From positions 1,770,501 to 1,834,500 of the forward strand of contig CANLEH010000001.1 of the NCBI GenBank assembly GCA_947489665.1: 64,000 bases of DNA, in the 5' to 3' direction. Positions 5,586 through 26,656 of the stretch are shown here, piece after piece. This DNA comes from an uncultured Roseicyclus sp. Lineage in GTDB: Bacteria > Pseudomonadota > Alphaproteobacteria > Rhodobacterales > Rhodobacteraceae. The notes beneath the pieces are model-generated. The model did not search any database and had not been told where the DNA came from. It saw nothing but the letters and a program-made list of their open reading frames with translations. Position 1 is the first letter of the stretch. Each line of letters opens with the position of its first letter. The position numbers were made by a program, and so were the translations under genes.

Positions 5586-5591
5586 TCAGCC

Positions 5592-7373: not shown

Positions 7374-7481
7374 GGCCCAAGGGCATCGCCGTGACCTCTC
7401 CCACACGGCGGTGCTCCCATTACGACCCGAGCCTGTCCGTCCCCCGGGGCGGGCAGGACCGTATCATCCCGGAGACGCGAC

Positions 7482-9302
7482 ATGTCCCTTTCGGCAGAAC
7501 TGACGCGCTATCTCGCCTCCGTTCATCCATACGATAGCCTGGCTGAACCCGACCTGTTGGACCTGGCGGCCGTCTGTTCGATCCAAGACATGCGGGCGGG
7601 CGAGACCATCTTCGCAACCGGCGATGTCGTTGAATTTCTGTACCTTTTGGTCGCTGGCGAAGTTGAGGTTTTTGACGAGACCGGCGCCACCCTGTCCCTA
7701 CTGGGGCCCCGCAATTCGTTTGGCGAACGGGCGATCCTGCGCGGCGAGCGGGCCAGTCGGACCGCAAAAATCCTGTCCGACGCTAGCATGATCTGCATTC
7801 CGGCGGATGTGCTGACCCGACTTATCGCAGAGCATAAGGCAATCTCGAAATTCTTTAACCGCACGGGCCGTGCGCAGCCGCATCGGCAAGATCTGACGAC
7901 AATGGCCGTTGACGCCCTGATGACCCGCGATCCGGTGGTCTGCGGTCTGGATGCGACGATCCGTGAGGCCGCGTCAAAGATGTATGCGCACCGGATATCC
8001 TCCGTCTGCATTGTGGAGGCGGAAGCTTTCAAAGGCATCGTCACCCTGCGTGACATGAATGGAAAAGTGATCGTTGAGGGCGCCGACCCGACGGCGCCGG
8101 TTTCCTCCATCATGTCCGACGCGCCCTTGACGCTTGGCCCTGCTGCATTGGTGACGGATGTCCTGCATCTCATGGTTGAACGCGGCATAGGCCATGTTCC
8201 CATTGTTGAAGGGGACCGCCTTGTCGGCATCGTCACGCAAACCGACCTGACCCGCGCGCAGGCCATGACGTCGGCTGATCTGGTGGGCCGTGTAGCGAAA
8301 GCGCAAGACGCGGCGCAGATGGCGCGCGCCACGGCTGAGATCCCGCAGCTTCTGGTGCAACTGATCAGCGCAGGCGCGCGGCACGAGGTGGTGACGCGCC
8401 TGATCACTGACATCGCAGATACGGCAACGCGTCGCCTTTTGGCACTGGCAGAGGCAGAGTTTGGCCCGCCGCCCGTGCCCTATCTCTGGCTCGCCTGCGG
8501 CAGTCAGGGGCGGCAGGAACAAACGGGCGTGTCGGATCAGGACAATTGCCTGATCCTCTCAGACGATGTGACCGAGGCGGACTTGCCCTATTTCGAGGCA
8601 CTGGCGCGGTTTGTCTGCGACGGCCTCAACACGATCGGCTATGTCTATTGCCCCGGCGATATGATGGCCACTAACCCGCGCTGGCGGCAGAAGCTGTCGG
8701 TCTGGCGCAACTATTTCGACGGCTGGATCGCCCGGCCCAACCCAGAGGCGCAGATGCTGGCCTCCGTCATGTTCGACCTGCGGCCCATCGGGGGGGATGC
8801 CAGCCTGTTCGACGGGCTCCAGGCCGAGACCCTCAAGAAAGCATCGGCCAATTCGATCTTCGTGGCCCATATGGTGGCCAATTCTCTCAAGCATCATCCG
8901 CCGCTCGGGCTTTTGCGCGGCTTGGCGACCATACGGGCGGGCGAGCATCGCAACCAGCTTGACCTGAAGCACAATGGCGTCGTGCCGATCACCGATCTGG
9001 GCCGTATCAACGCGCTGCAAGGGCAGTTGGCGCCCGTGAACACACGCGCCCGACTTGAGGCCGCAATGGAGGCAAGTTTGGTGTCACCAAGCGGAGGGGC
9101 AGACCTATTGGAGGCCTATGACCTGATCGCCACCATGCGGCTCGAAGATCAAGTGAGCCAGATCAAGGCAGGCCTTGCGCCAGATAATTACCTTGATCCT
9201 GCGTCGTTATCGGATTTCGAACGCAGTCACCTGCGCGATGCATTTGTCGTGGTAAAGACGATGCAATCCGCCGCAGGGTCTGGGAAGGGAGCACTCAGCT
9301 GA
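7482..9302 (+). CDS. cNMP-binding, CBS-pair and DUF294 nucleotidyltransferase-like protein
   Basis: A 606-residue soluble signalling protein. Domains in order are a cyclic-nucleotide-binding barrel (about residues 25-120, with GERAILRGERASRTA as the phosphate-binding cassette), two CBS repeats (about 145-265, beginning ALMTRDPVVCG), a nucleotidyltransferase-like domain with CGSQGRQEQTGVSDQDN near 336-352 (GlnD-like GS...SDxD pattern), and a DUF294 C-terminal helical domain. Such proteins often neighbour sodium:solute symporters and a DnaQ-like exonuclease, as here. They are proposed to sense nucleotides and modify or regulate a partner, but the reaction is not established for most. The last A of its stop is the first base of the next start. 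Confidence 0.9.
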   Translation: MSLSAELTRYLASVHPYDSLAEPDLLDLAAVCSIQDMRAGETIFATGDVVEFLYLLVAGEVEVFDETGATLSLLGPRNSFGERAILRGERASRTAKILSDASMICIPADVLTRLIAEHKAISKFFNRTGRAQPHRQDLTTMAVDALMTRDPVVCGLDATIREAASKMYAHRISSVCIVEAEAFKGIVTLRDMNGKVIVEGADPTAPVSSIMSDAPLTLGPAALVTDVLHLMVERGIGHVPIVEGDRLVGIVTQTDLTRAQAMTSADLVGRVAKAQDAAQMARATAEIPQLLVQLISAGARHEVVTRLITDIADTATRRLLALAEAEFGPPPVPYLWLACGSQGRQEQTGVSDQDNCLILSDDVTEADLPYFEALARFVCDGLNTIGYVYCPGDMMATNPRWRQKLSVWRNYFDGWIARPNPEAQMLASVMFDLRPIGGDASLFDGLQAETLKKASANSIFVAHMVANSLKHHPPLGLLRGLATIRAGEHRNQLDLKHNGVVPITDLGRINALQGQLAPVNTRARLEAAMEASLVSPSGGADLLEAYDLIATMRLEDQVSQIKAGLAPDNYLDPASLSDFERSHLRDAFVVVKTMQSAAGSGKGALS

Positions 9303-9820
9303 TGTTCATCGAATTGATCGCCACCGTCTTTGCTGGCATTGCCTGTGCTGGGATCGCTATGCTGCTGAACCGGGTCACAGGACGCCGCTTGCCACGCTGG
9401 ATCACGCCGGTTGCGGCGGGTTTGGGGATGCTGGCGATGACGGTTACCAACGAATACACTTGGTTTGACCGCACGGCTGACGAATTGCCCGACGGCATCG
9501 AGATCGCCATGACGGTGGAAAACCAAAGCTGGTTCCGCCCCTGGACGCGCCTTTACCCATATGTTGAACGCTTCGTCGCCGTGGATACAGGCACCGCCCG
9601 CACAAACGCCGCGTTCCCCGACCAGCGCCTTGCGGACCTCTATTTCTTTGGTCGTTGGTCGCCTGTGAACCAGGCCCCAATGCTGTTTGATTGTGCAAGC
9701 GCCCGGTCGGCCCTGCTGATCGACGGCGCTGAATTCGATGAAGACGGCGCAGTTGTTGACCCCGCGTGGGAGGGGATGCCCGAAGACGATCCGATCCTCG
9801 AATTGGTTTGTGAGACCTAG
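9302..9820 (+). CDS. Conserved small membrane protein, unknown function
   Basis: This 172-residue protein begins with two hydrophobic segments (about residues 2-22 and 34-52) separated by a basic loop with RVTGRRLPRW, then a soluble domain of about 120 residues rich in aromatic and acidic residues, ending in DPILELVCET. I recognise no named family. It overlaps the DUF294 gene by one base (TGATG), and the exonuclease gene starts one base after its stop, so the three are probably translated as a unit. Its place between two proteins that flank sodium:solute symporters suggests it is a membrane partner in the same regulatory set; this is inference only. Confidence 0.7.
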   Translation: MFIELIATVFAGIACAGIAMLLNRVTGRRLPRWITPVAAGLGMLAMTVTNEYTWFDRTADELPDGIEIAMTVENQSWFRPWTRLYPYVERFVAVDTGTARTNAAFPDQRLADLYFFGRWSPVNQAPMLFDCASARSALLIDGAEFDEDGAVVDPAWEGMPEDDPILELVCET

Positions 9821-9821
9821 G

Positions 9822-11216
9822 ATGCTCACCCTGCTGTCCTTACGCCTGCGCATCTTCCTGTTCTTTTGCCTGCTGGCACTGGGCGGGGCAGTGGTTGCAG
9901 CGGGGGCGATCTGGTTCGGTTCCAGTCGTGGTGATCCGTTTGTGACAAGCTTGCTGATATTCGTGCTGCTCAACACCGGCCTGATCCTCGGGATATGGCT
10001 GCTGTTTGACGAAAACGTCGCCAAACCCATCCTGAACATGTCTGCGCAGCTGCGCCTGCGCGCCCATTCGCAAGCGGGCAGCGGCGTCGATACGCAGGAC
10101 GGGCGCTACCTGGGTGATCTGGCCCCGGCGGCTGAGGCCCTGTCGGCCCGTGCACTCGCCACGCAGGCCGAGGCGGACGCGCGACTGGCCGCTGAGACCG
10201 AGCATCTGGCGCAGGAGCGCGCGCGTCTGACCGCGATCCTAAGTGGCATTCCGATGGCCGTGATCTTGCTGAATGAAGCGGCAGAGATCGTTTTGTACGA
10301 CAGTCAAGCGGCAGACGTTTTGGCGCGCGTGGCCCCACCGCGCCTTAAGGCCCGGCTCTCAGACTATTTTGAGGGCGCGGCGATTGAAACGGCGATGGAA
10401 GCCTTGCGCGACGGATCCCGGACTGTGCCGCTGAGTTTGACGGACGCAACAAGGGCACATGTCTTTCATGCCCGGCTGAATGCGCAAACGGATGGCGGGT
10501 ACACGCTTGTGATTGACCCGCCCGAAGGCGCGTCCCCCCCGATCGCAGCGCGCCCGCTTGTCTACGATTTTGACCTGTTGACGATGGAGACGTCCCCAGA
10601 CCTGGCGGGCTCGCCGCTCGATACGCTCTGCTATGTGGCGTTTGATACTGAAACGACAGGTCTGTCGGTTGAGGCGGATGAGATCATCCAGATCGGGGCC
10701 GTCCGTGTCTTGCGCGGGCGCGTGGTGGAGGGTGAGCATATCAACACCTATGTCGATCCCGGTCGGTCCATTCCCCCGGCTTCCACCAAAATCCACAGGA
10801 TTACCGACGAAGACGTGTCAGGCGCGCCGGGTATCGACGATGCAGGGAGGATGCTGTCGCATTTTGCGCAGGATGCTGTGCTGGTGGCCCATAACGCGCC
10901 GTTTGACATCGGCTTGCTGCGGAAGAGCGCCCACAAGATGGGCGTTGACTGGGATCATCCCGTACTGGACACGGTCCTTTTGTCCGCAATCGTCTTTGGC
11001 ACGAATGCGGAGCATTCGCTGGATGCGCTATGCACGCGCCTTGGGATCGAGATCGCCGCCGAGCGCAGGCACACTGCGCTGGGGGATGCCGAGGCGACGG
11101 CAAAGGCACTGGTCTGTCTTTTGCCCCTTTTGCAGGCACAGGGCATCAGCACGTTCGGGCAACTTATCCAGCAAACCCGCAGGCATGGCCGACTTTTGCA
11201 GGATCTGAATCGTTAA
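9822..11216 (+). CDS. Membrane-anchored DnaQ-like 3'-5' exonuclease
   Basis: This 464-residue protein combines a membrane-anchored sensor-like N-terminus with a nuclease. Two hydrophobic segments (about residues 8-28 and 45-62) are followed by a HAMP- and coiled-coil-like part, a PAS-like region near 150-240, and a DEDDh exonuclease domain (about 268-440). The catalytic residues are visible: D275 and E277 in FDTETTG, D362 in HNAPFD, and H417 and D422 in HTALGDAEAT. This is the epsilon/DnaQ type. A nuclease on a receptor-like membrane scaffold is unusual; it could degrade a nucleotide or RNA signal rather than proofread DNA. It ends the acetate operon. The start at ATG 9822 leaves one base after the previous stop. 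Confidence 0.85.
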   Translation: MLTLLSLRLRIFLFFCLLALGGAVVAAGAIWFGSSRGDPFVTSLLIFVLLNTGLILGIWLLFDENVAKPILNMSAQLRLRAHSQAGSGVDTQDGRYLGDLAPAAEALSARALATQAEADARLAAETEHLAQERARLTAILSGIPMAVILLNEAAEIVLYDSQAADVLARVAPPRLKARLSDYFEGAAIETAMEALRDGSRTVPLSLTDATRAHVFHARLNAQTDGGYTLVIDPPEGASPPIAARPLVYDFDLLTMETSPDLAGSPLDTLCYVAFDTETTGLSVEADEIIQIGAVRVLRGRVVEGEHINTYVDPGRSIPPASTKIHRITDEDVSGAPGIDDAGRMLSHFAQDAVLVAHNAPFDIGLLRKSAHKMGVDWDHPVLDTVLLSAIVFGTNAEHSLDALCTRLGIEIAAERRHTALGDAEATAKALVCLLPLLQAQGISTFGQLIQQTRRHGRLLQDLNR

Positions 11217-11431
11217 GAAATTGCCATGACGGCAAATTATTAACGCGGGTTTGATGGCGAATTGGCGGTCCGATAACGCGTGCATGGGATGCTCTGGTTG
11301 TCGCCGGACCCCTTTTCTTGCCCGGTGTCGACTGCCTTTGAGATCCTCTTGTTCGCCCATCTGCCAAGCCCTCCGTCAGGGGTGCGGTCGGGTGGGGGGC
11401 ACAAGCTTTATTTTTGAGAACCAAAACCTTT
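11217..11431 (+). other. Intergenic sequence with no recognised feature
   Basis: Between the exonuclease stop and the terminator at 11432 I see no gene with coding character, no tRNA and no clear promoter. It may be the 3' untranslated part of the acetate operon. Confidence 0.4.
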
Positions 11432-11470
11432 AAGACCGGCGACCTCCTTGCGAAGTCGCCGGTCTTTTTT
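11432..11470 (+). terminator. Strong rho-independent terminator
   Basis: AAGACCGGCGAC at 11432-11443 pairs with GTCGCCGGTCTT starting at 11455, around an 11-base loop, followed by a run of T ending at 11470. The T run is on the plus strand, so it most likely ends the acs-to-exonuclease operon about 220 bases downstream of its last gene. Confidence 0.88.
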
Positions 11471-11515
11471 GTGTGGGAAACGGATGGTGTCTTTAGGGAT
11501 AGAGAGAGAGGAGCG

Positions 11516-11555
11516 GGTGCCCCGGTGGGGCGGGAGAGGGGACAACCGGGGCACC
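11516..11555 (-). other. Stem-loop downstream of the haem peroxidase gene
   Basis: GGTGCCCCGGT at 11516-11526 is perfectly inverted as ACCGGGGCACC at 11545-11555, an 11-bp stem with an 18-base loop. It begins 17 bases after the peroxidase stop in that gene's direction. There is no T run on either side, so it may be a processing or stability hairpin, or a rho-assisted end, rather than a classical terminator. Confidence 0.55.
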
Positions 11556-11572
11556 GCGCGCTTGTGATCGGG

Positions 11573-13102
11573 CTAGCCCGTCACAAGATCGCCAGCATGA
11601 GCGATATGAGCACGGTTGTTTTCAACAAACCGCAACAGATGGCCCATGGAATAAGTGCCATCGGCGTCGGCCCCAAGCTGCGGGCAGGGCACGAAATCAG
11701 GCGCCGAACAGGGCAGGCTGTCCGGGCTCAAATGCAGCAGCCGCATCAGGACGGTCGCTACAAGCGTCCCGCCCACAGGGCCCAACTTGCCGCCATGGCC
11801 ATTGCCCTCCTGCAGGCAGTAGAACCAAAGCGGTGTCTTGGTGATGCCGCGATGCTTAAGAGTGTCGGGCGCGGGCAGCTCGGCCACATGCATGCGCCGC
11901 GCGATTTGCTGGCCCGAGGCCATTTGCAGCGTGAACCGGTCGCGGATCATGTTGCGCAGGGGCAGCTTGCGCGCCTCGCCCGTCTCAACATCGAAGGTGC
12001 CGCCCATCTTGTCGATCACGGTAAAACCGCTACCCACGAACGGCAGGATATAGATCGCATCGGCAAGGTTCGTGCCGACTGGCCGTGCCCGCTGCGATGC
12101 GGCCGATCCCGGAACATCAAAGAACTGATCGAACTCGATATTGCGATCGGCCGGGCGATGGGTGAATTCGGCCCGTCCCAGTTGGAACAGGTCAAACAGC
12201 GGGCCTCCATTGGCCAACCTGTATTGGCTTTGAACGGTCGCATGCCCAAACCGGTATGCAGCGCCAGAGAATTCCATCGGCATGACCGGGCTGTCATCCT
12301 TAAACGGATGCGGCAGCGATCCGTGGTCGAACTTGGCCTTGACGTTATCCAGCACATCGGCATCGACAAAGGCGGGCAGCAGGCCGTGCAAGATCACCCA
12401 CTGATAGTGCAGGCGGCAGGCGCGCCGCGCGGTCTGAAAGGCCACCTGTTCGGCGGACATCGCGGCCAGTTCGCTCGCGGGAACATGGGCCAACATCTTG
12501 CCCACAAGCTCCGTATCGCCATCAAGAACCTTGGTCATGACGATGTTGTGCAGGCACACAAACGCGCCTTGCAGTTGCGAGATGACCTGGTTCTCATCGT
12601 TGCGCGGATCCCCGATCAGCGCCGTGCCATGCTGGTTGCGCGCCAAATCAAGCGGGTTTGCACTATTGCCGAACAGCAGGAACCCACCATGATCCGGGTG
12701 ATAGAGGTGCGGCGAGGCCTCTGGCCCCGCGCCATAAACGCAATCCAGATCCAGCGACGGCGTGCGCACATTGCGGATCGAGCCGATGGATACCAGCCGC
12801 CCGATCTCCGACGTGGCATCGAAGGTGACGTCATGGTCTACGAATTGGCCAAAGAAGGTCATCCCGGCCTCGGCTGTGCTTTCAGGCTCAGCACCCGCAG
12901 TATGACGCATCTCGTCAGTCAGGGCGATCAATGCCTGTGTAACTGTCTCGGCGTTGAATGCGTTGCCGTGCGGGTCATTGCCGCTGACCGGATTTTCCGG
13001 CCCGATCCGCCCGAAGGTCGGCGCCAAAGGCGGCAGCGGCGCGTCTGCGCAGTGCTTGGACAGGGTTTCAAAGCGGCTCATGCCATGGTGTTGGGTGGTC
13101 AT
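11573..13102 (-). CDS. Animal-type haem peroxidase
   Basis: A 509-residue member of the peroxidase-cyclooxygenase (animal haem peroxidase) superfamily, which uses H2O2 to oxidise halides or organic substrates. The active-site landmarks are present: distal FGQFVDHDVTF with H90 flanked by D89 and D91, the catalytic Arg/Glu segment GDPRNDEN (R167, E170) followed by LHN, and the proximal haem ligand H287 in YRFGHATV. There is no signal peptide, so it looks cytoplasmic or is exported by an unrecognised route. ATG 13102 is chosen because GGAGG precedes it; a GTG four codons earlier overlaps that site. It is divergent from a subtilase and near a haloperoxidase-type PAP2 protein, which suggests a shared oxidative pathway. 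The natural substrate is unknown. Confidence 0.92.
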   Translation of the reverse strand: MTTQHHGMSRFETLSKHCADAPLPPLAPTFGRIGPENPVSGNDPHGNAFNAETVTQALIALTDEMRHTAGAEPESTAEAGMTFFGQFVDHDVTFDATSEIGRLVSIGSIRNVRTPSLDLDCVYGAGPEASPHLYHPDHGGFLLFGNSANPLDLARNQHGTALIGDPRNDENQVISQLQGAFVCLHNIVMTKVLDGDTELVGKMLAHVPASELAAMSAEQVAFQTARRACRLHYQWVILHGLLPAFVDADVLDNVKAKFDHGSLPHPFKDDSPVMPMEFSGAAYRFGHATVQSQYRLANGGPLFDLFQLGRAEFTHRPADRNIEFDQFFDVPGSAASQRARPVGTNLADAIYILPFVGSGFTVIDKMGGTFDVETGEARKLPLRNMIRDRFTLQMASGQQIARRMHVAELPAPDTLKHRGITKTPLWFYCLQEGNGHGGKLGPVGGTLVATVLMRLLHLSPDSLPCSAPDFVPCPQLGADADGTYSMGHLLRFVENNRAHIAHAGDLVTG

Positions 13103-13335
13103 ATGTGCCTCCACATCTGAAAGAAATTGGCAGTCAAAGGGTCTTATCTTCCAATGGCTTCAGCCTGCGCGACGCCCGTCAGGGCACCGCAAATCCTGCG
13201 CAATCGCTGCGCAAGAAAACGCGGCCAGCGTGAAAATTGTTAGAAATGCGTGAAAATCTGCATCGCCGGGATGTGCGTATTGGACTGAGACCTGTCCTGC
13301 CCGCACAGTGAAGGCGTGCACCGACGGGGGGTATC
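13103..13335 (+). promoter_or_regulatory. Divergent control region with 10-base direct repeats 20 bases apart
   Basis: This gap separates the divergent peroxidase and subtilase genes. GCGTGAAAAT occurs at 13228-13237 and again at 13248-13257, exactly 20 bases apart, which places both on one face of the helix. An inverted repeat TGCGCA-N5-TGCGCA lies at 13197-13213. Direct repeats near two helical turns apart are the usual kind of target for SARP-type regulators, one of which is encoded at 16.6 kb. The regulator-site link is a hypothesis. Confidence 0.45.
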
Positions 13336-15324
13336 ATGGGTAAAACACGCGGATGGAACGGCTACGGGGATTGGACCCTTGAACTTTCGGGCTTGAATGA
13401 TCCGGCCTGGCGGACGCTTGACGCCTATTGGGAGCCGATGCTCCTGCGCGTGATGACCGCCAAGGGTGAACCGGCCCTCTATTCCCAATGCGACGACTTC
13501 TTTGCGCAGGCAGATGCGCTGGGCCGCAAGGGGGGCTTCTGGCTTCCGCCGATGGAGCTTCAGTTCCAAGATGCCATCAAGTCGCCACGCGCAACGGTCG
13601 AACTGCTCGCCTATCGGCGCCTTGATCTGCGCGACAAGATCACCGGCAAGGAAAAAAGCCTCCTGTTTGAGACACTCGCTGTTGGCACCGTTCTGCACGC
13701 AGATAACCTGCCGAATTTGACTCGCGTTGAACCACGCGACCCGTTCCTCCCTCCGAAACTCGTCTTCGGTATCATCGATGACGGGATCGGGGTCTTGCAC
13801 GGGCGCACCCGCCGCTATCCCACTGCCAGCCGAATTGAGAAGGTGCTTTGGCTGTCAGGTGCGGCTGGGGCTGCGTCCGTGCAAACCATCTCCCAGATCG
13901 ATGCAGAGCTGTCGCGCCCCATTCAACGGGCCGAGCAAGACGCCTACCGTGACTATGCGCAAGCCGTCTATGCGCCCCAGACCCGCCATTCGCTGGGCCG
14001 CGCGCAGACCCACGGGGCCCATATGCTCGATCTTGCCGTCGGCGCCGATGCGGGCGATCCGATGACCAAGGTTCCGATCCTTGGCGTTCAAGTCGCGCCT
14101 GAGAGTTTCGACGACACCTCCGGCACGCGTCTGAACTTCGATATTCTCATTGGCCTGCGGTGGCTGATCCTCGAAACCGCGCTTTTGGCGGGGCTGGGCA
14201 CACCGGTCGATCTGGTTGTGAACATGAGCCTTGGCTATATCGCGGGGCCCAAGAACGGACGCTCGTTCATTGAACAGGCCATCGCGCACCTGATGGATGT
14301 CGCCGAACTGGTGCTGCACATGAACGTCCACCTCGTCGTGCCATTCGGGAATGGATATTCCGACAATGTCGTGGCCCGCAGCACGATCGTGTCGGGTGGG
14401 TCGCAAGACTTCAACCTGCGCGTCCAGCCGGACGACCGCACGCCATCCTTCCTGGAGATGCGGCTGACGGACCAGAGCCCGGCGCAGGATCACAGCCAGA
14501 TCGAAGTGGGTGTCACGGCCCCGCGCGGTGGTCTTCAGGCCAGCCAATTCACATTGCTCGCGGGCCAGTTTGCCGACCTGATCGACGATGCAGGCCGCTT
14601 GCTTGGACGGCTCTATCACATCCCCGCCCGCACGCTCTTTGCCGGGCAAGTGGAGCCTGCCTACCTTTTGCTGGCGCTTGCGCCCACCGTGCGGTCCCGC
14701 TCGGACACAGAGCTGACATGCCCCAGCGGGCAGTGGCAGATCACCTTGCGCAATTGCAGCAAGCAGGACATGGATCTGACCGCGCAAGTCCAGCGCGATG
14801 ATGACCCGTCCGACCGCAATACGGGCGCAAGGCAGGCCCGGCTTGAGGGGGAAGAGACCCGCGCCTGGGATGCCGTCGGCCGCGATTTCGAGGGCGTCGA
14901 TGAAGCGGCGGGGCGCGTGACGCGCCGAGGCACCAATTCGGCGCTCTCAACGATCCAACATAGCAGACGCCTGTCTGTTGGCGGTGCATTGGTGCGCCGT
15001 GATCCAACGGTGCCCGCGCATTTGCTGGTAGAGCCTGCGGAATATTACGGCGCCGAAGGGGCCGATTGGTCCGGCCATGCCCCCGACCTTAGCGCAATCA
15101 GTGAGGTAGAGCGCAACGCCCCCGGCGTCACGGCGGCGGGGCTGACCTCGGCTGGCAACGCGCGCCTGTCGGGCAGCAGCACGGCATGCGCCACGGCGTC
15201 CCGTGATCTGGTCAACCAATTGCTGGGTGTTACGCATCTGCCGGATGTGCCGCATCCGGTCTCTGATCCCCGTTTGGGGCAGCGCACCTTGCTCGATACG
15301 CCCGCCATCCGGCGACGCCCCTGA
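13336..15324 (+). CDS. Divergent subtilisin-like (S8) serine protease
   Basis: A 662-residue protein with a spread-out but complete subtilase catalytic set: Asp in VFGIIDDGIG (D148 or D149), His in THGAHMLDLAVG (H226), the oxyanion Asn in VPFGNGYS (N339), and Ser in SGSSTACATA (S615), about 275 residues after the Asn. NMSLGYIAGP near 296-305 matches the substrate-binding strand. The large gap between Asn and Ser suggests an inserted beta-rich domain (about 350-590), as in several large subtilases. About 140 N-terminal residues precede the catalytic Asp, and no signal peptide is seen, so it may act inside the cell. The start follows GGGGGTATC, a weak ribosome site. It probably processes a protein made by this locus; the target is unknown. 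Confidence 0.82.
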   Translation: MGKTRGWNGYGDWTLELSGLNDPAWRTLDAYWEPMLLRVMTAKGEPALYSQCDDFFAQADALGRKGGFWLPPMELQFQDAIKSPRATVELLAYRRLDLRDKITGKEKSLLFETLAVGTVLHADNLPNLTRVEPRDPFLPPKLVFGIIDDGIGVLHGRTRRYPTASRIEKVLWLSGAAGAASVQTISQIDAELSRPIQRAEQDAYRDYAQAVYAPQTRHSLGRAQTHGAHMLDLAVGADAGDPMTKVPILGVQVAPESFDDTSGTRLNFDILIGLRWLILETALLAGLGTPVDLVVNMSLGYIAGPKNGRSFIEQAIAHLMDVAELVLHMNVHLVVPFGNGYSDNVVARSTIVSGGSQDFNLRVQPDDRTPSFLEMRLTDQSPAQDHSQIEVGVTAPRGGLQASQFTLLAGQFADLIDDAGRLLGRLYHIPARTLFAGQVEPAYLLLALAPTVRSRSDTELTCPSGQWQITLRNCSKQDMDLTAQVQRDDDPSDRNTGARQARLEGEETRAWDAVGRDFEGVDEAAGRVTRRGTNSALSTIQHSRRLSVGGALVRRDPTVPAHLLVEPAEYYGAEGADWSGHAPDLSAISEVERNAPGVTAAGLTSAGNARLSGSSTACATASRDLVNQLLGVTHLPDVPHPVSDPRLGQRTLLDTPAIRRRP

Positions 15325-15349
15325 CGCACGGGGCATCGCCAACGGCCTT

Positions 15350-16501
15350 TTACGAAAGCTCAGGCATCTGGCCCAGGGCCTTCTGCCACAGATAGGCGCT
15401 GACATCGTCGACCGGCGCGTTCAACGGGACGGCGTTTGGCGGCGGCGGCGGGTTTGGAGCCGCATCGCCAAGCAAAATCCGCACACTGTCTTCTGTCAGA
15501 TCATGGATCGGGTTCGCGGGCCCGGGCAGGTCCAGCGTGCGAACCGCCGTCTCACCGGCGCCCGAAAGCCAGTTCACCAACGCCTCGCCCAAGGTCACGC
15601 CCAGGACAAGGCCGCACAGGCTGTCATGGGGATAGTGGACGCCCGCAACCGTGCGATTGTCTGAAATCCGCATGGCCGTGCGCATCAGCATCCGGGCGGA
15701 CCCGTTCACATCGCGCGTTGCGTCGTTCATGTCGAACCGGCCCACATTGCCTGCCTTGCGATCCACAAGACCCGCCAAGACGGTCGCCAATGCGAAGGAT
15801 TCCGTCGCGTGGCCCGATGGCCAGGCCCCGTGGGTCGGCGTGTCGATCACCGGCATCACCTTCGAGGACAGAAGGGACGGGCGCGGCACGTCGAAGACAA
15901 ACTTGAACGGGAACTCGATATATCCGCACAACCGGACCACCGCCTCTGTCAGCTCAAAAATCCAGTCACTGCGCGACCAGTCCAGCAATAGAACTGCGCC
16001 GAAGAAGGAGGTGATATCCTCGGTCTGCATCAGGATCTCGTCGATCCGGTCTGCGCGCAGGTCCGCCGCATCCCGCACCATCGGCAATTGCGTATTGGCG
16101 AAATAGGCATTGTCCGGCCGGTTGAGCGTGACCAGCGGATTGGCCGGATCAATAAGCGTGCTGTGAAGTTCGCTGCCCGAAACCGCAAAACGCGCGAACA
16201 GCTGGTCATCGATGACCACCTCGCGCGGAATGTCCGACAAGGCCTCCAGCTTCTCACCGACAGTGCGGTTGTCGAGCACGTTATTGGGCGTCGTGCCGGG
16301 ATCAATATCGCCCGTCCAGTACGGTGCAACCCCTTCGCGGTGGCTCATCAATGCCGAAGACAGCAGGCCATCGACGTCACCCGAATCCTCACGCCCTGCG
16401 CGTCCGGCGCGACCAGCCCGTCCTGCGCGACCGGCCCGTCCTGCGCGCCCGGCTCGTCCAGCCCGACCGGCGCGTCCCGCACGTCCTGCATAGGTTGCCA
16501 T
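15350..16501 (-). CDS. PAP2 / vanadium-haloperoxidase-type enzyme with (AGR)11 tail
   Basis: A 383-residue soluble protein with the full PAP2/vanadium-haloperoxidase signature: K200-x6-R207-P (KFVFDVPRP), P-S-G-H231 (AWPSGHATES), and NR283-x5-H289-x3-D293, with Asn replacing the usual Ser before R283. It has no row of membrane helices, which favours a soluble haloperoxidase or acid-phosphatase-like enzyme over a lipid phosphatase. Residues 5-37 are eleven perfect Ala-Gly-Arg triplets, giving a strongly basic, flexible tail. The C-terminal part holds a Pro-rich stretch NPPPPPNAVP. ATG 16501 is preferred (GGGGG upstream) over a TTG four codons earlier. It converges on the subtilase and is divergent from a SARP-like regulator. 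Haloperoxidase versus phosphatase activity cannot be settled from sequence. Confidence 0.85.
   Translation of the reverse strand: MATYAGRAGRAGRAGRAGRAGRAGRAGRAGRAGRAGREDSGDVDGLLSSALMSHREGVAPYWTGDIDPGTTPNNVLDNRTVGEKLEALSDIPREVVIDDQLFARFAVSGSELHSTLIDPANPLVTLNRPDNAYFANTQLPMVRDAADLRADRIDEILMQTEDITSFFGAVLLLDWSRSDWIFELTEAVVRLCGYIEFPFKFVFDVPRPSLLSSKVMPVIDTPTHGAWPSGHATESFALATVLAGLVDRKAGNVGRFDMNDATRDVNGSARMLMRTAMRISDNRTVAGVHYPHDSLCGLVLGVTLGEALVNWLSGAGETAVRTLDLPGPANPIHDLTEDSVRILLGDAAPNPPPPPNAVPLNAPVDDVSAYLWQKALGQMPELS
16391..16489 (-). repeat. Eleven tandem 9-base repeats coding (Ala-Gly-Arg)11
   Basis: Eleven contiguous 9-base units lie in frame at the start of the PAP2-type gene. The units differ almost only at synonymous third positions, while the Ala-Gly-Arg reading is perfect. 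That pattern points to selection on the peptide rather than a recent slippage array, although repeat number could still vary between strains. Confidence 0.95.
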
Positions 16502-16560
16502 ATCTACCCCCAATCCTGTTTCACTGAAGCGTGTTACCCGGAGCGGAGGATGATTGCCGT

Positions 16561-16607
16561 TGCGTCAATGCGTCAACGCTCGGCGGAACCTGCATACTTT
16601 TTTCACG
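16561..16607 (+). promoter_or_regulatory. Candidate regulator sites between PAP2-type gene and SARP gene
   Basis: The octamer TGCGTCAA is repeated head to tail at 16561-16568 and 16569-16576. CGTGAAAA, the core of the direct repeats at 13228-13257, occurs here on the minus strand at 16600-16607. If the regulator starts at ATG 16641, both lie in the divergent promoter region of the PAP2-type and regulator genes. Function is inferred from position only. Confidence 0.35.
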
Positions 16608-16640
16608 AAAAATTTGCGATTTATTGCGGTTTCTGGCTCC

Positions 16641-18284
16641 ATGGGGGCGAGTAAAGGGGCTGCTCCGGGAAAGCTGTTGAAAAACCGTGTGAAAATCCGG
16701 TTCTTTGGAACGTTTGCTGTGATCGACAGCAACGGCCGCGACCTCACGCCGAAAGGCAAGAAGGCGCGGGGCATTGTTGCGCTGTTGGCCGAGACCACGA
16801 CCATGCGACGGGGCCGGCGTTGGTTGGAGGCCATGCTTTGGAGTGACCGCGCGCCCAGTCAGGCCAGCGGCTCCCTGCGCCAAAGCTTGAGCGAGTTGCG
16901 ATCCGCCTTCGGTGAAACGGTGGACATTCTGCACTCTGACCGCGGCGATGTGTGGCTCAACGCCGAGGCCGTGGATACCGATATTGACCCAAACAGCCCA
17001 TTGCGGGAACCGGGGCGCGCCTTTCTGGAAGGCTTCGACGTGCGCGACGAAGCGTTCGAGCAATGGTTATCTGAGGCGCGCAGCCGGTATGACGGCACGG
17101 CCCGCGTGCCCGCGGCGCCCGCCGCTGCAAGACCGCTGCAAAATGTCGTGACGATCCGCTCGGCTGTCTCGGAAATCGGCTCCGTCACCGAGAACGTGGT
17201 TGGGCGTGTCTTGGCCGACACCGTAGCCCGCGGGATTGAACAGAATTTCAGCGCCGCACGATATGTCAGCGCATCTCGCAACGATCCTGATCTGGTGCCA
17301 GACCTCGAAATCCGGTGCGACACGGCCAATGACGGCGGGCGCGCCGTGGCCTTCATCCGTGTGGAAGAGGGGGCAAGTGGCCGCGTCCTTTTCTCAGAAC
17401 ATCTCACAGTGCCCGGCACGTCGGCGGACCTTCTGCAATCCGACGCGATCCATGGCATCGTGAACGCCGCCTCGGCCCAGGTGCCTGCACGTCTGGCCAG
17501 CCATATCGACCTGCACCGGCCTGAAGCGGCGGCCATGGGCTTTTCCAGCCTCGCGCGCCGACAGCTCAAACGCCTGGATGGCGAAGGGCTGGCCGAGGCC
17601 AACGAAAACTTCCAACGCGCCTATGAGGTGGACAGCAACGGCGTCTTCCTGGCCTGGCGTGCTTTTGTCCGGATGGCGCAACTGGTCGAGGCGGTGGATG
17701 GCGATGCCCAGGGCTGGCGGGATGAGGTCGATCAACTGGCCTCCGATGCGCTTAACCTGTCGGGCGGCAATAGTCTGGCGGTCGCCTTGGTCGCCCTGAC
17801 GCGTTTCATGCTGGAAGACGATCTGCGCCCGGCGGCGGAACTGGCCAAGACCGCCCTGTCGCAGAACACCAACAGCCTGTTTGCCCGGCAAACCCTTGCC
17901 TTGGCGCATTCTGCCGTGGGGGATGCCGAAAAGGCCTATGCCATGTCCTCCAGCTGCCGCACGGCTGCGGCCAATGACGAACTCAGCCATCTGTGGGACC
18001 TCTACCATGCGCTGGTTTGCATCGGGGCAGGGCGCCTGGATGAAGCGCGCGCAACGTCACACAGCTCAGCCGCCAAATCGCCCACCTTCATTGCGCCGCG
18101 CCGTCAGTTGGTTGCCCTTTGTGCCCATTCCGGTGACTTCGACGATGCCAAAGCGCACTTAACCGCTTTGGAGAAACTGGAAGGCGGGTTCACCATCGAC
18201 CGTTACCTCAACGATCCCGAATACCCGAACCTGACCTTGCGCAACGCGGGGCTTCTTGATCCCGTCCGCAAGATCAAGGACTGA
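16641..18284 (+). CDS. SARP-like transcriptional regulator with TPR C-terminus
   Basis: The protein begins with an OmpR/SARP-type winged-helix domain: KIRFFGTFAV and LTPKGKKARGIVALLAE, then RRWLEAMLWSD and SGSLRQSLSELR, residues about 15-110 from this start. A middle part of unclear fold (about 130-280) is followed by helical TPR-like repeats up to 547. Such bacterial activators often control secondary-metabolite or unusual-enzyme gene sets. The start is uncertain: a TTG at 16554 with GGAGG four bases upstream would add 29 residues, but ATG 16641 leaves a normal divergent promoter of about 140 bases and still contains the whole DNA-binding domain. No ligand or phosphorylation domain is seen. 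It is the best candidate for control of the neighbouring peroxidase, protease and PAP2-type genes. Confidence 0.75.
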   Translation: MGASKGAAPGKLLKNRVKIRFFGTFAVIDSNGRDLTPKGKKARGIVALLAETTTMRRGRRWLEAMLWSDRAPSQASGSLRQSLSELRSAFGETVDILHSDRGDVWLNAEAVDTDIDPNSPLREPGRAFLEGFDVRDEAFEQWLSEARSRYDGTARVPAAPAAARPLQNVVTIRSAVSEIGSVTENVVGRVLADTVARGIEQNFSAARYVSASRNDPDLVPDLEIRCDTANDGGRAVAFIRVEEGASGRVLFSEHLTVPGTSADLLQSDAIHGIVNAASAQVPARLASHIDLHRPEAAAMGFSSLARRQLKRLDGEGLAEANENFQRAYEVDSNGVFLAWRAFVRMAQLVEAVDGDAQGWRDEVDQLASDALNLSGGNSLAVALVALTRFMLEDDLRPAAELAKTALSQNTNSLFARQTLALAHSAVGDAEKAYAMSSSCRTAAANDELSHLWDLYHALVCIGAGRLDEARATSHSSAAKSPTFIAPRRQLVALCAHSGDFDDAKAHLTALEKLEGGFTIDRYLNDPEYPNLTLRNAGLLDPVRKIKD

Positions 18285-18304
18285 CTTTTGCCGGGTTTCG
18301 CGCC

Positions 18305-19183
18305 GTGACGTTCGAACAAATTCGCACATTTCTGTGGGTCGCGCGCCTGGGCGGCTTTCGCAAGGCCTCTGAACGGCTCCACCTATCCCAACCCGCGGTC
18401 TCGACCCGGATCGCCAACCTTGAAGATGAGCTTCAGGTCACGCTGTTCGAGCGTGGGACAGGCAAGTTGATCCTGACCAAGCATGGCCAACAATTGCTGA
18501 CCTATGCCGAGCAGATGCTGTTCGTGGAAGAAGAGATCAAACATCGCGTGGGCTCCTCCGCGCAGGTCGAGGGGTTGTTCCGCGTCGGGGCCTCCGAGAC
18601 CATCGCACAAGCCTGGTTGCCCGAATTTCTACAAGCCTTTTCAAATAGCTACCCCAGCGTGAACGTTGATCTGACAGTCGACATTTCCGGCGCGTTGCGG
18701 GATGGGTTGGTGGAAAGGCGGCTCGATCTTGCCTTTCTGATGGGGCCAATTTCGGAGTTTTCGGTCAAGAACGTGCCCCTGCCGCGCTTTGACCTGCACT
18801 GGTACCGCGCGGCCCACCTGGCAGAGCCGGATCTGGGCACAACGCCGGTGATTTCCTATTCCAGCCGGACGCGCCCGCACCGCGAACTGACCAGCGCCCT
18901 GTCGCAGCGGGTCGGCCCCAAAATGCGGGTGTTCACCTCAGCATCGCTCTCGGCCAGCCTGCGCATGATTGCCGCCGGGATTGCCGTGGGGCCTTACCCA
19001 AAGGTCTTGGCCGGGCCGTTCATGCAGGCGGGCGAAATCGTGGAGTTCGACCCCGATCTGCCCCTGTCACCGCTGGAATTCACTGCATCCTACCTGGCCG
19101 AGCCACGATCGGTTCTGGTTGAGGCGTCCGCAGAGATCGCGGCCGAGGTGGCAGCGGGTTGGCACCGCCTACACCCGGATTGA
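18305..19183 (+). CDS. LysR-family regulator of the 5-oxoprolinase/TRAP locus
   Basis: A 292-residue LysR-type regulator with an N-terminal helix-turn-helix (TFEQIRTFLWVARLGG and KASERLHLSQPAVSTRIANL, residues 2-50), then an effector-binding domain. The start is a GTG. It lies 20 bases after the SARP-like gene and 94 bases before the DUF1445 gene, and all genes to 26.7 kb run in the same direction, so it most likely controls the TRAP/oxoprolinase set. The effector may be the transported compound. Unlike most LysR genes it is not divergent from its presumed target. Confidence 0.9.
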   Translation: MTFEQIRTFLWVARLGGFRKASERLHLSQPAVSTRIANLEDELQVTLFERGTGKLILTKHGQQLLTYAEQMLFVEEEIKHRVGSSAQVEGLFRVGASETIAQAWLPEFLQAFSNSYPSVNVDLTVDISGALRDGLVERRLDLAFLMGPISEFSVKNVPLPRFDLHWYRAAHLAEPDLGTTPVISYSSRTRPHRELTSALSQRVGPKMRVFTSASLSASLRMIAAGIAVGPYPKVLAGPFMQAGEIVEFDPDLPLSPLEFTASYLAEPRSVLVEASAEIAAEVAAGWHRLHPD

Positions 19184-19277
19184 CATCCAAAAATTCGATC
19201 ACTCTTTATCAAAAATGATAATTTGAACGGATGAAGGTTCCTGTGCAAGCCTTGCGCTGACCAAACAGGGGGATCTG

Positions 19278-20090
19278 ATGGCCATGCCATCCGACACAAT
19301 CCAGGACAGCGCTTGGGACATCCGGCAGCGCATTCGCACGGGCGCCCATGTCGGCCACACGGCGGGCCTTGCGCCGGGAAAGCTGCAATGCAACCTCGCC
19401 ATCCTGCCGGAACGCTACGCCCTCGATTTCCTGCGCTTTTGTCAACGTAACCCCAAGCCCTGTCCCGTCGTGGGCGTCAGCGAAACCGGTGATCCAACCC
19501 TGCCGACCCTGGGCCGCGAAATCGACATCCGCACCGACGTGCCGAAGTACCGCGTGTTTCGCGATGGCGTTCTGTCGGGCGAGGTCACGGACATCACGGA
19601 CCTTTGGGCCGATGATCTGGTGACGGTCGCCCTGGGCTGTTCCTTTACCTTCGAGAACGCCTTGATGCGGGCGGGCATTCCGGTGCGCCACATCGAACAG
19701 GGGCGCAACGTGCCGATGTTCCGCTCCAACATCGCGCTGCAAAGTGCGGGGCCATTTGGCGGCGAGATGGTCATCACCATGCGACCGATTCCGGAGGACA
19801 GGGTGGGGGACGCACACATGATCTCCGCGCGCTATCCGCAGGCCCATGGCGTGCCGATCGCCACGGGCGATCCGAAGGCGCTTGGCATCGCCTCGCTGGA
19901 CCGGCCTGACTACGGCGACCCTGTGGACGTCCGCGCAGGCGAGGTGCCGGTCTATTGGGCCTGCGGCGTCACCCCGCAAAACGTCCTTTTGCAGGCCAGG
20001 CTGCCGCTCTGCATCACCCATTCGCCCGGCCATATGCTGATCGCAGATGTCGCCGAAGACGCCGAAACCCCAATCTATTCAAACCCATAA
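19278..20090 (+). CDS. DUF1445 (D-glutamate cyclase / YcsI family) protein
   Basis: A 270-residue protein of the DUF1445 family, also named UPF0317, YcsI or putative hydro-lyase. Typical segments are visible: ARTG-like opening with HTAGLAPGKLQCNLAILPE, CPVVGVSETGDP, VTVALGCSFTFENAL, and the C-terminal CITHSPGHMLIAD. Family names link it to D-glutamate cyclase, which interconverts D-glutamate and 5-oxo-D-proline in animals, though the catalytic assignment in bacteria is not secure. Here it shares an operon with a TRAP transporter and a fused 5-oxoprolinase, which agrees with 5-oxoproline chemistry. GGGGG precedes the ATG. Confidence 0.88.
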   Translation: MAMPSDTIQDSAWDIRQRIRTGAHVGHTAGLAPGKLQCNLAILPERYALDFLRFCQRNPKPCPVVGVSETGDPTLPTLGREIDIRTDVPKYRVFRDGVLSGEVTDITDLWADDLVTVALGCSFTFENALMRAGIPVRHIEQGRNVPMFRSNIALQSAGPFGGEMVITMRPIPEDRVGDAHMISARYPQAHGVPIATGDPKALGIASLDRPDYGDPVDVRAGEVPVYWACGVTPQNVLLQARLPLCITHSPGHMLIADVAEDAETPIYSNP

Positions 20091-20113
20091 ACGACCCAAC
20101 AGGAGGATATCCC

Positions 20114-21139
20114 ATGAAAAAGACACTGAGCCTTTTGGCCGCCACCACCGCGCTTGCCGGTGCCGCGCAAGCGGAGGATTTCAACGTGGTCGGCAGCTGG
20201 TCGTCCCTGCCGCTGCACAACCAGTATGAGGCCCCGTTCTGGACCGAAGTTCTGCCTGGTGCTGGCGATTTCAATGTCGAGTTGACCACCCATAACCAGA
20301 TGGGCCTTGGCCTGTCCGAGATCTATCCGCTGCTGGGGCAGGGCGTCTATGACGTCGCGATGACCGTGGCCGACTACGCCGTGGGCGATGCCCCCGAACT
20401 TGAGGGTTTGGACGTGCCGCTTCTGGCGCTCACCGCTGACGAGGCGCGCGCCATGGTCGATGCGGCGCGTCCCATGGTCGAAGAGATCTTCCGCAACCGC
20501 TTCAACGCCGAAGTCCTCGCCATCGCGCCGTACCCGCCGCAGGTCGTCTTCTGCAATGCCGAGATCAACAGCCTGGCCGATCTCGAAGGGCTGCAAGTCC
20601 GCGCCTCGGGCCGGATGACCGCGATCTTCCTTGAAGCCTTGGGTGCAGAGGGCGTGAACGTGTCCTTCTCCGAAGTGCCGGGCGCGCTTCAGAACGGCGT
20701 GGTCGATTGCGCCGTGACCGGCGCGGGCTCGGGCTATTCCGCAGGTTGGTGGGAGGTTTCCACGCACCTTCTCCCGATCCCCCTTGGCGGCTGGGACAGC
20801 GTTGTGACCGCGATGAACGCCGACCGTTGGGATGGCCTGTCGGCAGACGTGCAAGCCACGATCGAGGCCGAGATCGCCTCAGGCTTTGAAGACCCCGCCT
20901 GGGCCTCCGCCCAAGACGCGCTGGTCAACGACATCGCCTGCCTGACCGGCAATGGCGAGTGCCCCGCAGGGGATGCCCGTGACATGGTGCTGGTTGAGGT
21001 GTCCGACGCCGATTTCGACCGCGCGCGCGAGGTTCTCGTGGGTCAGGTCCTGCCCGATTGGGCCGAGCGTGCAGGTGGCGATTGGGCCGAGCGCTGGAAC
21101 GCGTCGGTCGGTGAAGTCGTCGGCGTGACCATCGAGTAA
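20114..21139 (+). CDS. dctP: TRAP transporter solute-binding protein (DctP-like)
   Basis: A 341-residue periplasmic binding protein. Residues 1-21 form a signal peptide (MKKTLSLLAATTALAG, cleavage expected after AQA). The mature part shows the DctP fold, with YPLLGQGVYDVAMTV and the helix-strand segment LADLEGLQVRASGR, whose Arg normally makes the salt bridge to a substrate carboxylate. AGGAGGATATCCC gives a strong ribosome site before the ATG. Together with the small and large permease genes that follow it would import an organic acid with a sodium gradient. The neighbouring DUF1445 and 5-oxoprolinase genes point to pyroglutamate; TRAP binding proteins for pyroglutamate are known in other bacteria. 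Confidence 0.92.
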   Translation: MKKTLSLLAATTALAGAAQAEDFNVVGSWSSLPLHNQYEAPFWTEVLPGAGDFNVELTTHNQMGLGLSEIYPLLGQGVYDVAMTVADYAVGDAPELEGLDVPLLALTADEARAMVDAARPMVEEIFRNRFNAEVLAIAPYPPQVVFCNAEINSLADLEGLQVRASGRMTAIFLEALGAEGVNVSFSEVPGALQNGVVDCAVTGAGSGYSAGWWEVSTHLLPIPLGGWDSVVTAMNADRWDGLSADVQATIEAEIASGFEDPAWASAQDALVNDIACLTGNGECPAGDARDMVLVEVSDADFDRAREVLVGQVLPDWAERAGGDWAERWNASVGEVVGVTIE

Positions 21140-21207
21140 TCGCCGCTAATGAGATAGGGTTGCAAGGTTGCAACCCTACCTTACCCAACTGATAAGAAAG
21201 CATAATC

Positions 21208-21756
21208 ATGGAATTGGCTTTGATCGACCGCTTGCGCCGGATCAACCGCGCCGTGGCCCTTCTGGTGGGCCTTGGCCTTCTGGGGATGGCCGGGTTCGTG
21301 GTGCTCGACATCATCCTGCGGCAATTCCATGCCTCTTTCGGCGGGTCCGAAGAACTGGCGGGCTATGCCATGGCGCTGGCGACAAGCTGGGGCATGGCCT
21401 ATGCGCTGCTGGAACTGGGCCATATCCGCATCGACCTTCTGCGATCCCGCACGGGGTCGCAGGCCAAGGCGCTTTTTGACGTCTTTTCGCTCATCACCAT
21501 GTCCGCCGTGATCGTCACGATCGCCATCAAATGCTGGCCCGTGGTGGAGCGCGCCATCACAAACGGCTCCCGCGCCAACACGCCGCTCGCCACCCCGCTC
21601 GCCTGGGTGCAGGTGCCATGGTTTGCCGGCTGGGTCTGGTTCGCGGCGATGTCGTGCCTCGTCACGCTCTGCGCCATCCTTCTGGTCGCCAAGGGACGCG
21701 GCCCCGAGACCGAGCCCTTTGCCGGCGCCTTCGCAGAACAGGACAGCCTGCAATGA
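21208..21756 (+). CDS. dctQ: TRAP transporter small permease (DctQ-like)
   Basis: A 182-residue inner-membrane protein with four hydrophobic helices (about residues 13-38, 50-70, 90-110, 130-155), the standard DctQ plan. The segment VVLDIILRQFHASFGGSEELA corresponds to the conserved part between the first two helices. It overlaps the large permease gene by four bases (ATGA), so the two membrane subunits are coupled. The 68-base gap after the binding-protein gene holds a short imperfect inverted repeat around GGTTGCAAGGTTGCAACC, possibly a stability hairpin that lets the binding protein be made in excess. Confidence 0.9.
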   Translation: MELALIDRLRRINRAVALLVGLGLLGMAGFVVLDIILRQFHASFGGSEELAGYAMALATSWGMAYALLELGHIRIDLLRSRTGSQAKALFDVFSLITMSAVIVTIAIKCWPVVERAITNGSRANTPLATPLAWVQVPWFAGWVWFAAMSCLVTLCAILLVAKGRGPETEPFAGAFAEQDSLQ

Positions 21757-23036: not shown

Positions 23037-23105
23037 CGCTCAAACCCCTTGTGAACACTGAACCAATGCGGTCCAAACGGCCCGCAAACGAAGAGGAACC
23101 CTCCG

Positions 23106-26656
<3,551 letters not shown>

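Follow-up and report, generated by a model that had tools for sequence, protein, structure and literature searches.

The classical binding sequence of SARP regulators, as set out in a study that includes PimR (PMC5930380), consists of heptamers separated by a four-nucleotide spacer, which gives a pitch of 11 bp. Among conflict systems, a trypsin-NucA-S8 composition has been described for 'System 3', which is mostly alphaproteobacterial (PMC7159879). Vanadium-dependent bromoperoxidases have been solved with chains of 556-666 aa (1qi9, 5lpc, and 1qhb), and bacterial collagen-like proteins are known for their Gly-X-Y pattern. Here, we analyzed a 64-kb stretch of DNA from an uncultured Roseicyclus sp. 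(G000:C1:1770501-1834500, hereafter the window; source genome, 4.13 Mb), which carries a cassette with likenesses to each of these, namely a SARP-like regulator, a divergent subtilase (S8), and a PAP2-superfamily protein of the vanadium-haloperoxidase type with an N-terminal repeat tail, together with an adjacent haem peroxidase.

With SARP regulators such as PimR, as portrayed in PMC5930380, the cassette regulator shares a winged helix, predicted operators of heptamer direct repeats with four-base spacers (11-bp pitch), and cluster-situated control, whereas it departs from them in having a tetratricopeptide-repeat (TPR) C-terminus with no detectable BTAD domain, a proteobacterial host, and no antibiotic cluster seen. 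The cassette PAP2 protein has the presumed vanadate- or phosphate-binding residues and an extra His in common with the solved bromoperoxidases; unlike them, it is short (383 aa), carries a lineage-specific repeat, and is genetically tied to a protease and a regulator. Many of the tails, (AGR)n included, share Gly-X-Y with bacterial collagen-like proteins, but their units are identical within a protein, often not Gly-X-Y, and fused to an enzyme. 'System 3' resembles the cassette in being proteobacterial and peptidase-centered, with S8 as a possible component, and a cousin of the cassette adjoins a trypsin-NucA-S8 protein. In contrast, the window cassette has a repeat-tailed haloperoxidase-type enzyme and a SARP-like regulator, and the words 'peroxidase', 'SARP', and 'PAP2' do not occur in the main text of PMC7159879 according to a word search. 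No description of the cassette or of repeat-tailed haloperoxidases was found in the open-access literature, subscription literature being outside the scope of the search.

Recurrence of the three-gene cassette

We searched 295 genomes of the family with the window subtilase, which matched in 61 of them (about a fifth), and scanned the 73 surrounding loci plus the window (74 loci) with profiles grown from the window proteins. The regulator, PAP2 protein, and subtilase were all found in 70 of the 74 loci. A scan of named genomes with a PAP2 alignment yielded at least 574 confirmed loci, and 75 of the best 80 held all three genes. The two sets are not independent, with L105-L184 partly overlapping L032-L104 (for example, L153 is L052). 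Because the three families recur together at these frequencies, the association is more than a chance neighborhood, and we regard it as practically certain that they form a co-regulated three-gene unit. Several incomplete loci are cut by contig boundaries: L043, with the PAP2 and subtilase genes only, at a contig start, and L142, L157, L163, and L184 of the named set at contig ends. At L061, the DNA-binding part of the regulator is fused to the subtilase (8313-10538), which lacks its Asp region, and no PAP2 gene was found in the approximately 1.4 kb downstream before the contig end.

Gene order was compared across 146 distinct loci, with loci of identical PAP2 or upstream sequences counted once. 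The arrangement of the window, with regulator and PAP2 genes divergent and the subtilase opposite PAP2, occurred in 64 of them; 42 had PAP2 and subtilase co-stranded with a divergent regulator, 39 had all three genes co-stranded, and one was arranged otherwise. Pairwise distances of the three core proteins correlated at 0.80-0.83 over 137 loci, as expected for genes inherited together. To be among these 137 aligned loci, each of the three genes had to score over 250 bits and the repeat had to span 12 residues or more; L085, which has two cassettes, was excluded from the distance analysis.

The named loci include Rhodobacterales, Rhizobium, Bradyrhizobium, Oricola, Cohaesibacter, and a Rhodovibrionaceae record. 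The cassette also occurs in other orders of Alphaproteobacteria, and many bacteria of marine and soil habitats carry it. Among the matches listed, the closest named relative was L105, a record of an uncultured Roseicyclus whose PAP2 match had 91% identity, and a genome of the same genus (G831) carries the same cassette at a sister locus, L286. Matches to the PAP2 profile, mostly weak, were obtained in 77 of 385 genomes class-wide and 203 of 398 phylum-wide, and by hand count 7 and 15 genomes of these respective samples had matches above 250 bits. All three genes stood together in each of the 15 loci (L286-L300) that were chosen for stronger PAP2 matches, out of 20 regions fetched, and two such loci (L290 and L295, from genomes G689 and G889) lie outside Alphaproteobacteria. 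The subtilase and PAP2 genes also adjoin on plasmids, namely those of Phaeobacter, Paracoccus, Bosea, and Roseibium, and the gene beside them is annotated either as a regulator (winged-helix or cyclase) or as 'hypothetical protein'; a Paraburkholderia plasmid gave a subtilase match. These plasmid records annotate the cassette parts as unrelated single genes. The Phaeobacter plasmid cassette (NZ_CP010708.1, L306) has a winged-helix-annotated regulator and the PAP2 repeat unit NSF, and that of Roseibium (NZ_CP045635.1, L310) has a regulator annotated with an adenylate/guanylate cyclase domain and the unit SGV.

All four open reading frames (ORFs) that the initial annotation had reported here are present (Table 1). 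It had described intact active-site residues in two oxidizing enzyme types, and these are indeed found, namely distal Gln/His and proximal His in the peroxidase and K-R-H-R-H in the PAP2 protein; Asp/His/Asn/Ser of the subtilase are intact as well. We likewise saw no obvious signal peptide on the enzymes, as judged by eye rather than with a predictor. It had overlooked the SARP-type operator and the (AGR)11 repeat with which the PAP2 protein starts. Likely starts, assigned by eye, are ATG at 13102 for the peroxidase (preferred over GTG at 13114), ATG at 16501 for the PAP2 protein, and ATG at 16641 for the regulator. The window subtilase scored 17.7 bits against Pfam Peptidase_S8, under the curated cut-off of 21.8, while the subtilase family profile matched germination-related subtilases in the PDB (E 5.2e-26); over the aligned loci, its catalytic Asp was conserved in 136 of 137, and His, Asn, and Ser in all 137. 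As judged by eye in seven peroxidases, the distal Gln and His were invariant (7/7), and the proximal His was kept in six, including that of the window.

Table 1 Features of the cassette region, in window positions
Feature	Position	Strand	Remarks
Animal-type haem peroxidase (PF03098)	11573-13102	-	An_peroxidase E 1.4e-13; apparently an optional accessory cassette member
Predicted regulator operator, peroxidase/subtilase intergenic region	13235-13258	+	Direct repeat, 11-bp pitch; 19.1 bits, top of 127,954 positions
Divergent subtilase (S8)	13336-15324	+	Catalytic triad (Asp/His/Ser) and oxyanion Asn both preserved; core gene
PAP2-superfamily/vanadium-haloperoxidase-type enzyme with repeat tail	15350-16501	-	PAP2 E 1.2e-14; core gene
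N-terminal repeat (Ala-Gly-Arg) x 11 of the PAP2 protein	16391-16489	-	10 DNA versions among 11 units
Predicted regulator operator, PAP2/regulator intergenic region	16598-16621	-	17.9 bits, second highest in window
SARP-like regulator	16641-18284	+	Winged-helix-type N-terminus (by family), TPR C-terminus (Pfam); core gene

The regulator and its predicted operators

The 52 regulators of main cassettes matched 22 Pfam families at E 0.01. Trans_reg_C was matched by nine of the 52, the window protein not being one of them, and the consensus of the 52 covers the same N-terminal region. Among the TPR models, TPR_19 alone matched 35 of the 52, and BTAD was absent from the 22 families. We use the name 'SARP-like' because a winged helix and TPRs are present with no detectable BTAD. 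The SARP membership proposed in the initial annotation therefore stands as far as the winged helix and the 11-bp heptamer direct repeats are concerned, and not for BTAD.

The upstream regions of the cassette genes have the word CGTGAA(A/T) in common. Pairs of CGTGAA at a spacing of 11 bp were counted 43 times (a divergent region may be counted from both sides), against at most seven for any other spacing, and no 11-bp pair occurred in 472 control upstream regions. There were 30 distinct exact 24-base sites in 32 loci. A 24-column matrix was refined on other loci, with the window and sister records excluded, and with it the two cassette intergenic regions ranked first and second in the window, followed by a third site at 14.2 bits. 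Over 400 kb of the source genome, six sites scored above 12 bits and none as high as 17.9 bits. Two sites of 15 bits at L320 (14683 and 14809) were taken as chance matches, lying inside ORFs that look pilus-assembly-like by eye.

The variation in gene order provides a natural control for operator placement. Where the subtilase lies on the strand opposite PAP2, 55 of 61 loci have a site above 12 bits in its upstream region, against one of 80 where it is co-stranded with PAP2 and comes after it. Likewise, 92 of the 106 loci in which the regulator and PAP2 genes diverge have such a site, as do 16 of the 40 with the regulator first and co-stranded, compared with 16 of 457 control genes (the matrix controls being 457 rather than the 472 used for spacing, with the window left out). 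These frequencies are in-sample, as the loci helped to refine the matrix, but neither the contrast between arrangements nor the window result is produced by that. OmpR-type winged helices can use a similar operator spacing. Co-regulation of the cassette genes is strongly supported by these patterns, and the operators in both intergenic regions are predicted to be bound by the cassette regulator. An expression link among the genes, which had been put forward for this locus, is supported at the sequence level, with the two top SARP-type operators of the window lying in the peroxidase/subtilase and PAP2/regulator intergenic regions.

The haem peroxidase and second haloperoxidase-type proteins

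Co-occurrence of all four families elsewhere had also been proposed as a check, and it holds strongly for the three core families and weakly for the peroxidase. The haem peroxidase lies beside the cassette in seven of 74 loci and in varying positions, namely after the subtilase, after the regulator, or divergent from the subtilase as in the window, and it is not a fixed partner. The DNA of the sister locus L286 is 81% identical to window positions 13735-25594. A stretch matching window positions 2627-4535 (acetyl-CoA-synthetase-like, by eye) adjoins its subtilase, approximately 9 kb (window 4536-13300) are missing, and the peroxidase was not found there. The same window-specific segment also holds transporter-like, CBS-domain-like, and exonuclease-like genes, as judged by eye. 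We rejected an obligate four-gene system, as the peroxidase is absent at the sister locus and no match to it was found in 67 of the 74 loci.

A strong peroxidase match (E <=1e-40, hand count) was present in 45 of the 295 family genomes, 15 of which also have the subtilase, and in seven of these 15 the two genes are neighbors; random placement in 4 Mb would give about 1% per genome at most, by our estimate. Twelve distinct peroxidases adjoin a cassette or a cousin cassette, and seven of them have an operator above 12 bits upstream. Two of these seven, in the window and L216, share the upstream region with a further gene of the cassette, and the other five do not. Among the other peroxidases, none of 17 had an operator upstream (highest score, 10.2 bits), and near two of the 17, at L225 and L228, there is a regulator-type match of lower strength. 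Based on the neighbor frequency and the upstream operators, the haem peroxidase seems to be a genuine part of the regulon, though an optional one.

At some loci, a second vanadium-bromoperoxidase-like protein lies near the subtilase (35 distinct copies, e.g., at L033, L034, L035, L038, L039, L041, and L048). According to a motif search, its motif is intact in four copies (L086, L096, L104, and L172), of which the L104 protein, the one compared with the PDB, matched 5lpc with E 1.7e-98. The intact motif is missing from the other 31 of 35, though the proteins are kept in the locus, and these 31 may be catalytically dead.

Haloperoxidase or phosphatase chemistry

The Lys, catalytic His, second Arg, and second His of the PAP2 fold were each present in 137 of 137 aligned loci, the first Arg in 136, the Ser in 133, and the Gly in 128 (Ala in the other nine). 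We take these K-R-S/G-H-R-H residues to bind vanadate or phosphate. In addition, a His seven residues before the catalytic His was invariant (137/137); at the aligned position, the bromoperoxidase 1qi9 likewise has a His, and the acid phosphatase 7f17 a Gly. This extra His before the PSGH motif presumably matters in bromoperoxidases. When searched alone, the window protein had 1qi9 as its top match (E 6e-6). The PAP2 family profile, in contrast, matched the acid phosphatase 7f17 (E 7.7e-20) better than the bromoperoxidases (best, 1qi9, E 8.1e-10), which counts against haloperoxidase activity. Weighing the invariant His against this better profile match, we consider haloperoxidase rather than phosphatase chemistry probable, with a clear reserve, and halogenation by the cassette plausible.

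The best-surviving alternative sees in the PAP2 protein nothing but a phosphatase acting on acid or lipid substrates (an acid or lipid phosphatase), so that the cassette would be a regulated phosphatase-protease pair and the peroxidase a bystander. The acid phosphatase as the top solved-structure match, the designation 'phosphatase PAP2 family protein' in plasmid records, and the lack of the peroxidase at the sister locus would all agree with it. Nevertheless, we think it unlikely in view of the bromoperoxidase-type His, replaced by Gly in the acid phosphatase, and of the operators that cassette-adjacent peroxidases often carry.

A uniform, lineage-specific repeat tail

The window PAP2 protein begins with MATY-(AGR)11, and such tails are a property of the family. 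A perfect repeat with a period of 2-6 residues and at least three copies was present in 137 of 140 distinct cassette PAP2 proteins, the other three being those of L043 (at the contig start), L050 (imperfect by eye), and L051. Repeat runs of at least 15 residues occurred in 135 of the 140 homologs. Among the other ORFs of the 74 loci that reach 250 aa, one of 717 had such a run, and none was found in the 1669 six-frame ORFs (100 codons or longer) from 400 kb of the source genome. The single control ORF with such a run (L098:10748-13405) adjoins a cassette and has a long (DPV)n. The 137 proteins have 78 distinct units (e.g., GNQ, GHE, NSQ, GTQ, SAY, GQ, and GGAH), with period 3 in 106 and periods of 2, 4, 5, or 6 in 31; Gly is found in 110 units and not in the remaining 27. 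To our knowledge, no other family has a tail that behaves in this way.

Nucleotide identity between units was 0.780, compared with 0.790 expected from random synonymous codons according to the codon usage of the remainder of the same gene, and z exceeded 2 in 7% of the 137. Recent slippage at the DNA level was rejected as the origin of the repeats on these figures. As the codons differ as at random, the copies are mostly not recent DNA duplications, and as the unit is uniform all the same, selection acts on the peptide. Judged from the coding sequences, it is selection that keeps the repeat peptide uniform. The unit was shared by 26 of 26 locus pairs with at least 75% PAP2-core identity, by 22 of 33 at 65-75%, and by 19 of 263 at 55-65%, and related pairs may differ by one residue in the unit, as in GHE/GWE (L039/L037) and GWD/GYD (L139/L125). 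Repeat units therefore seem to change in concert and then stay fixed. In the Planktotalea frisia protein (L106:7694-8851), the tail alternates between AGQ and AGR, perhaps a unit change in progress.

One explanation for these tails is that they have a structural role, whether collagen-like, polyglycine-II, or silk-like, and would multimerize or condense the enzyme, with the protease regulating assembly. It would suit the prevalence of period 3 and of Gly, and 12 of 48 matched the Pfam collagen model at E 0.01. A Gly-X-Y repeat fits the window (AGR), but not the family as a whole, and collagen as a general explanation was rejected, given the 27 units that lack Gly. Because of these units and the 31 with other periods, no single fiber fold fits all tails, and we consider an assembly role rather improbable.

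Alternatively, the tail could be a multi-copy precursor in a peptide-signaling loop, in which the subtilase would trim it and the TPRs of the regulator would read the peptides and drive the cassette. Such a loop would work like the RRNPP/Phr systems, but within one cell or kin group. Units that are identical within a protein, lineage-specific, and selected at the peptide level are what it would lead one to expect, as are the TPRs in the tested regulators (and in that of the cousin L302) and a predicted operator preceding the tail-carrying gene. However, the three-gene core includes no export or import gene, Gly-rich units look poor as specific ligands, and the tail on an intact enzyme would be left unexplained. 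Nor does the unit co-vary with the subtilase, and it barely does so with the regulator: with the distance to the regulator, the partial correlation was 0.020 (reached by 27 of 500 permutations). All told, we hold a signaling loop of this kind to be quite improbable.

Cousin loci and neighboring genes

Four cousin loci (L302-L305) have a PAP2 protein with a (TGN)n or (AGN)n tail and a regulator matched by the cassette profile. Their regulators have a class III cyclase domain (L302 by Pfam and L303-L305 by eye), in L302 together with TPRs, and the peptidase is a glutamic peptidase A4 (L302 and L304 by Pfam, L303 and L305 by similarity). At L216 and L218, a PAP2 protein with an internal (SR)n is accompanied by a peroxidase, a SARP-like regulator, and an S8 protease that belongs to a different subfamily. 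L219 combines a PAP2 protein carrying (GATH)n with a SARP-like regulator, a peroxidase whose operator score was the highest of 30 (24.6 bits), and a probable papain-like protein, recognized by eye and with no Pfam match. In the cousins, the repeat-tailed PAP2 protein and the regulator are hence the constant parts, and the class of the predicted protease is interchangeable.

A protein with trypsin, NucA-type endonuclease, and S8 parts adjoins the L218 peroxidase, and related trypsin, NucA, lipase-like, SGNH-like, and papain-like genes (the last three named by eye) recur near the peroxidases of L215, L217, and L221-L223. These stand-alone and cousin peroxidases (L215, L217, L218, and L221-L223) may belong to a wider peroxidase-protease conflict neighborhood. 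The trypsin and NucA segments of L218 had no match in the first 40 kb of the window. Lipase-, SGNH-, or papain-like genes, identified by eye, also lie near the main cassettes L063, L067, and L130.

Among the families flanking the 74 loci, besides the core and the accessory oxidases (7 and 10 loci), the commonest was c2, present in 14 loci and an ABC-type ATPase as judged by eye from one member; each remaining family occurred in at most eight loci. The least probable alternative, a chemical-defense or halogenation pathway whose product would be a halogenated metabolite or a modified peptide, could draw on the conserved haloperoxidase-type active site, on the vanadium-bromoperoxidase-type proteins of four loci, and on SARP-type control as described for antibiotic clusters in PMC5930380, but no non-core, non-oxidase flanking family exceeds 14 of 74 loci (most are not identified, and a pathway gene could be among them) and 31 of the 35 second proteins have no intact motif, which makes a metabolite pathway less likely. 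Of the oxidative or halogenation system with a protease that the initial annotation had suggested, the oxidative part with a protease fits, because operators are common to the cassette genes and to seven of 12 adjacent peroxidases compared with none of 17 others; halogenation is plausible from the invariant His and from the intact vanadium-bromoperoxidase-type protein of four loci, and no sign of a peptide or small-molecule pathway was seen among the flanking families, most of which are not identified.

A possible protease-oxidase module

We tentatively prefer to read the cassette as a SARP-switched cytosolic protease-oxidase module, patchily distributed and sometimes plasmid-borne, that would form the damaging end of a conflict or self-defense response, with our doubts slightly outweighing our confidence in this reading as a whole. 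The TPR half of the SARP-like regulator would sense a cue, and its winged helix would bind the 11-bp-pitch direct repeats in both intergenic regions, switching on its own gene along with those of the subtilase and the repeat-tailed haloperoxidase and, in the strain of the window, that of the haem peroxidase as well. The low-complexity tail might then serve as a point of action or docking for the protease, and cutting could release, activate, or relocate the oxidase; for this link between protease and tail, the arguments on either side nearly balance. The oxidases would turn H2O2 and halide into hypohalous acid inside the cell, which may be the damaging end of the response. A conflict-type module is favored because of the protease swaps and the trypsin/NucA, lipase-like, and papain-like neighbors, although the defense role itself is the part that we propose most hesitantly.

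Several observations weigh against this reading, in addition to the better phosphatase match of the PAP2 profile. With PAP2 and regulator distances removed, the partial correlation between repeat unit and subtilase distance was -0.029 (reached by 499 of 500 permutations); as it is slightly negative, no tail-protease co-evolution is seen, and we rejected such co-evolution. At L048, the subtilase occurs with neither PAP2 nor regulator and has a histidine-kinase-like neighbor on the far side (by eye); L101 has the subtilase alone; and at L165 the flanks are present and no regulator match was found. Conflict-type neighbors were found at just three main-cassette loci, the L063, L067, and L130 mentioned above. 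None of the four window proteins was matched by PADLOC at E 0.1. The subtilase had no match in phage records, and phage carriage was rejected accordingly.

A bolder version of the protease-oxidase module is a long shot in our estimation. Since the repeat is uniform within and diverse between lineages, the tail would be a lineage-specific peptide self-recognition code, which a protease of whichever class (S8, glutamic, or perhaps papain-like) would cut or dock onto on its own haloperoxidase; the TPR protein that controls the cassette would read the products or the freed enzyme, and an intracellular burst of hypohalous acid, comparable in bacteria to the oxidative burst of phagocytes, would follow. 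Whichever reading applies, a uniform, lineage-specific repeat with randomized codons is a form of selection that needs explanation, and it offers an experimental handle. If hypohalous acid is indeed made inside the cell, the cassette would represent an oxidative-burst module in prokaryotes.

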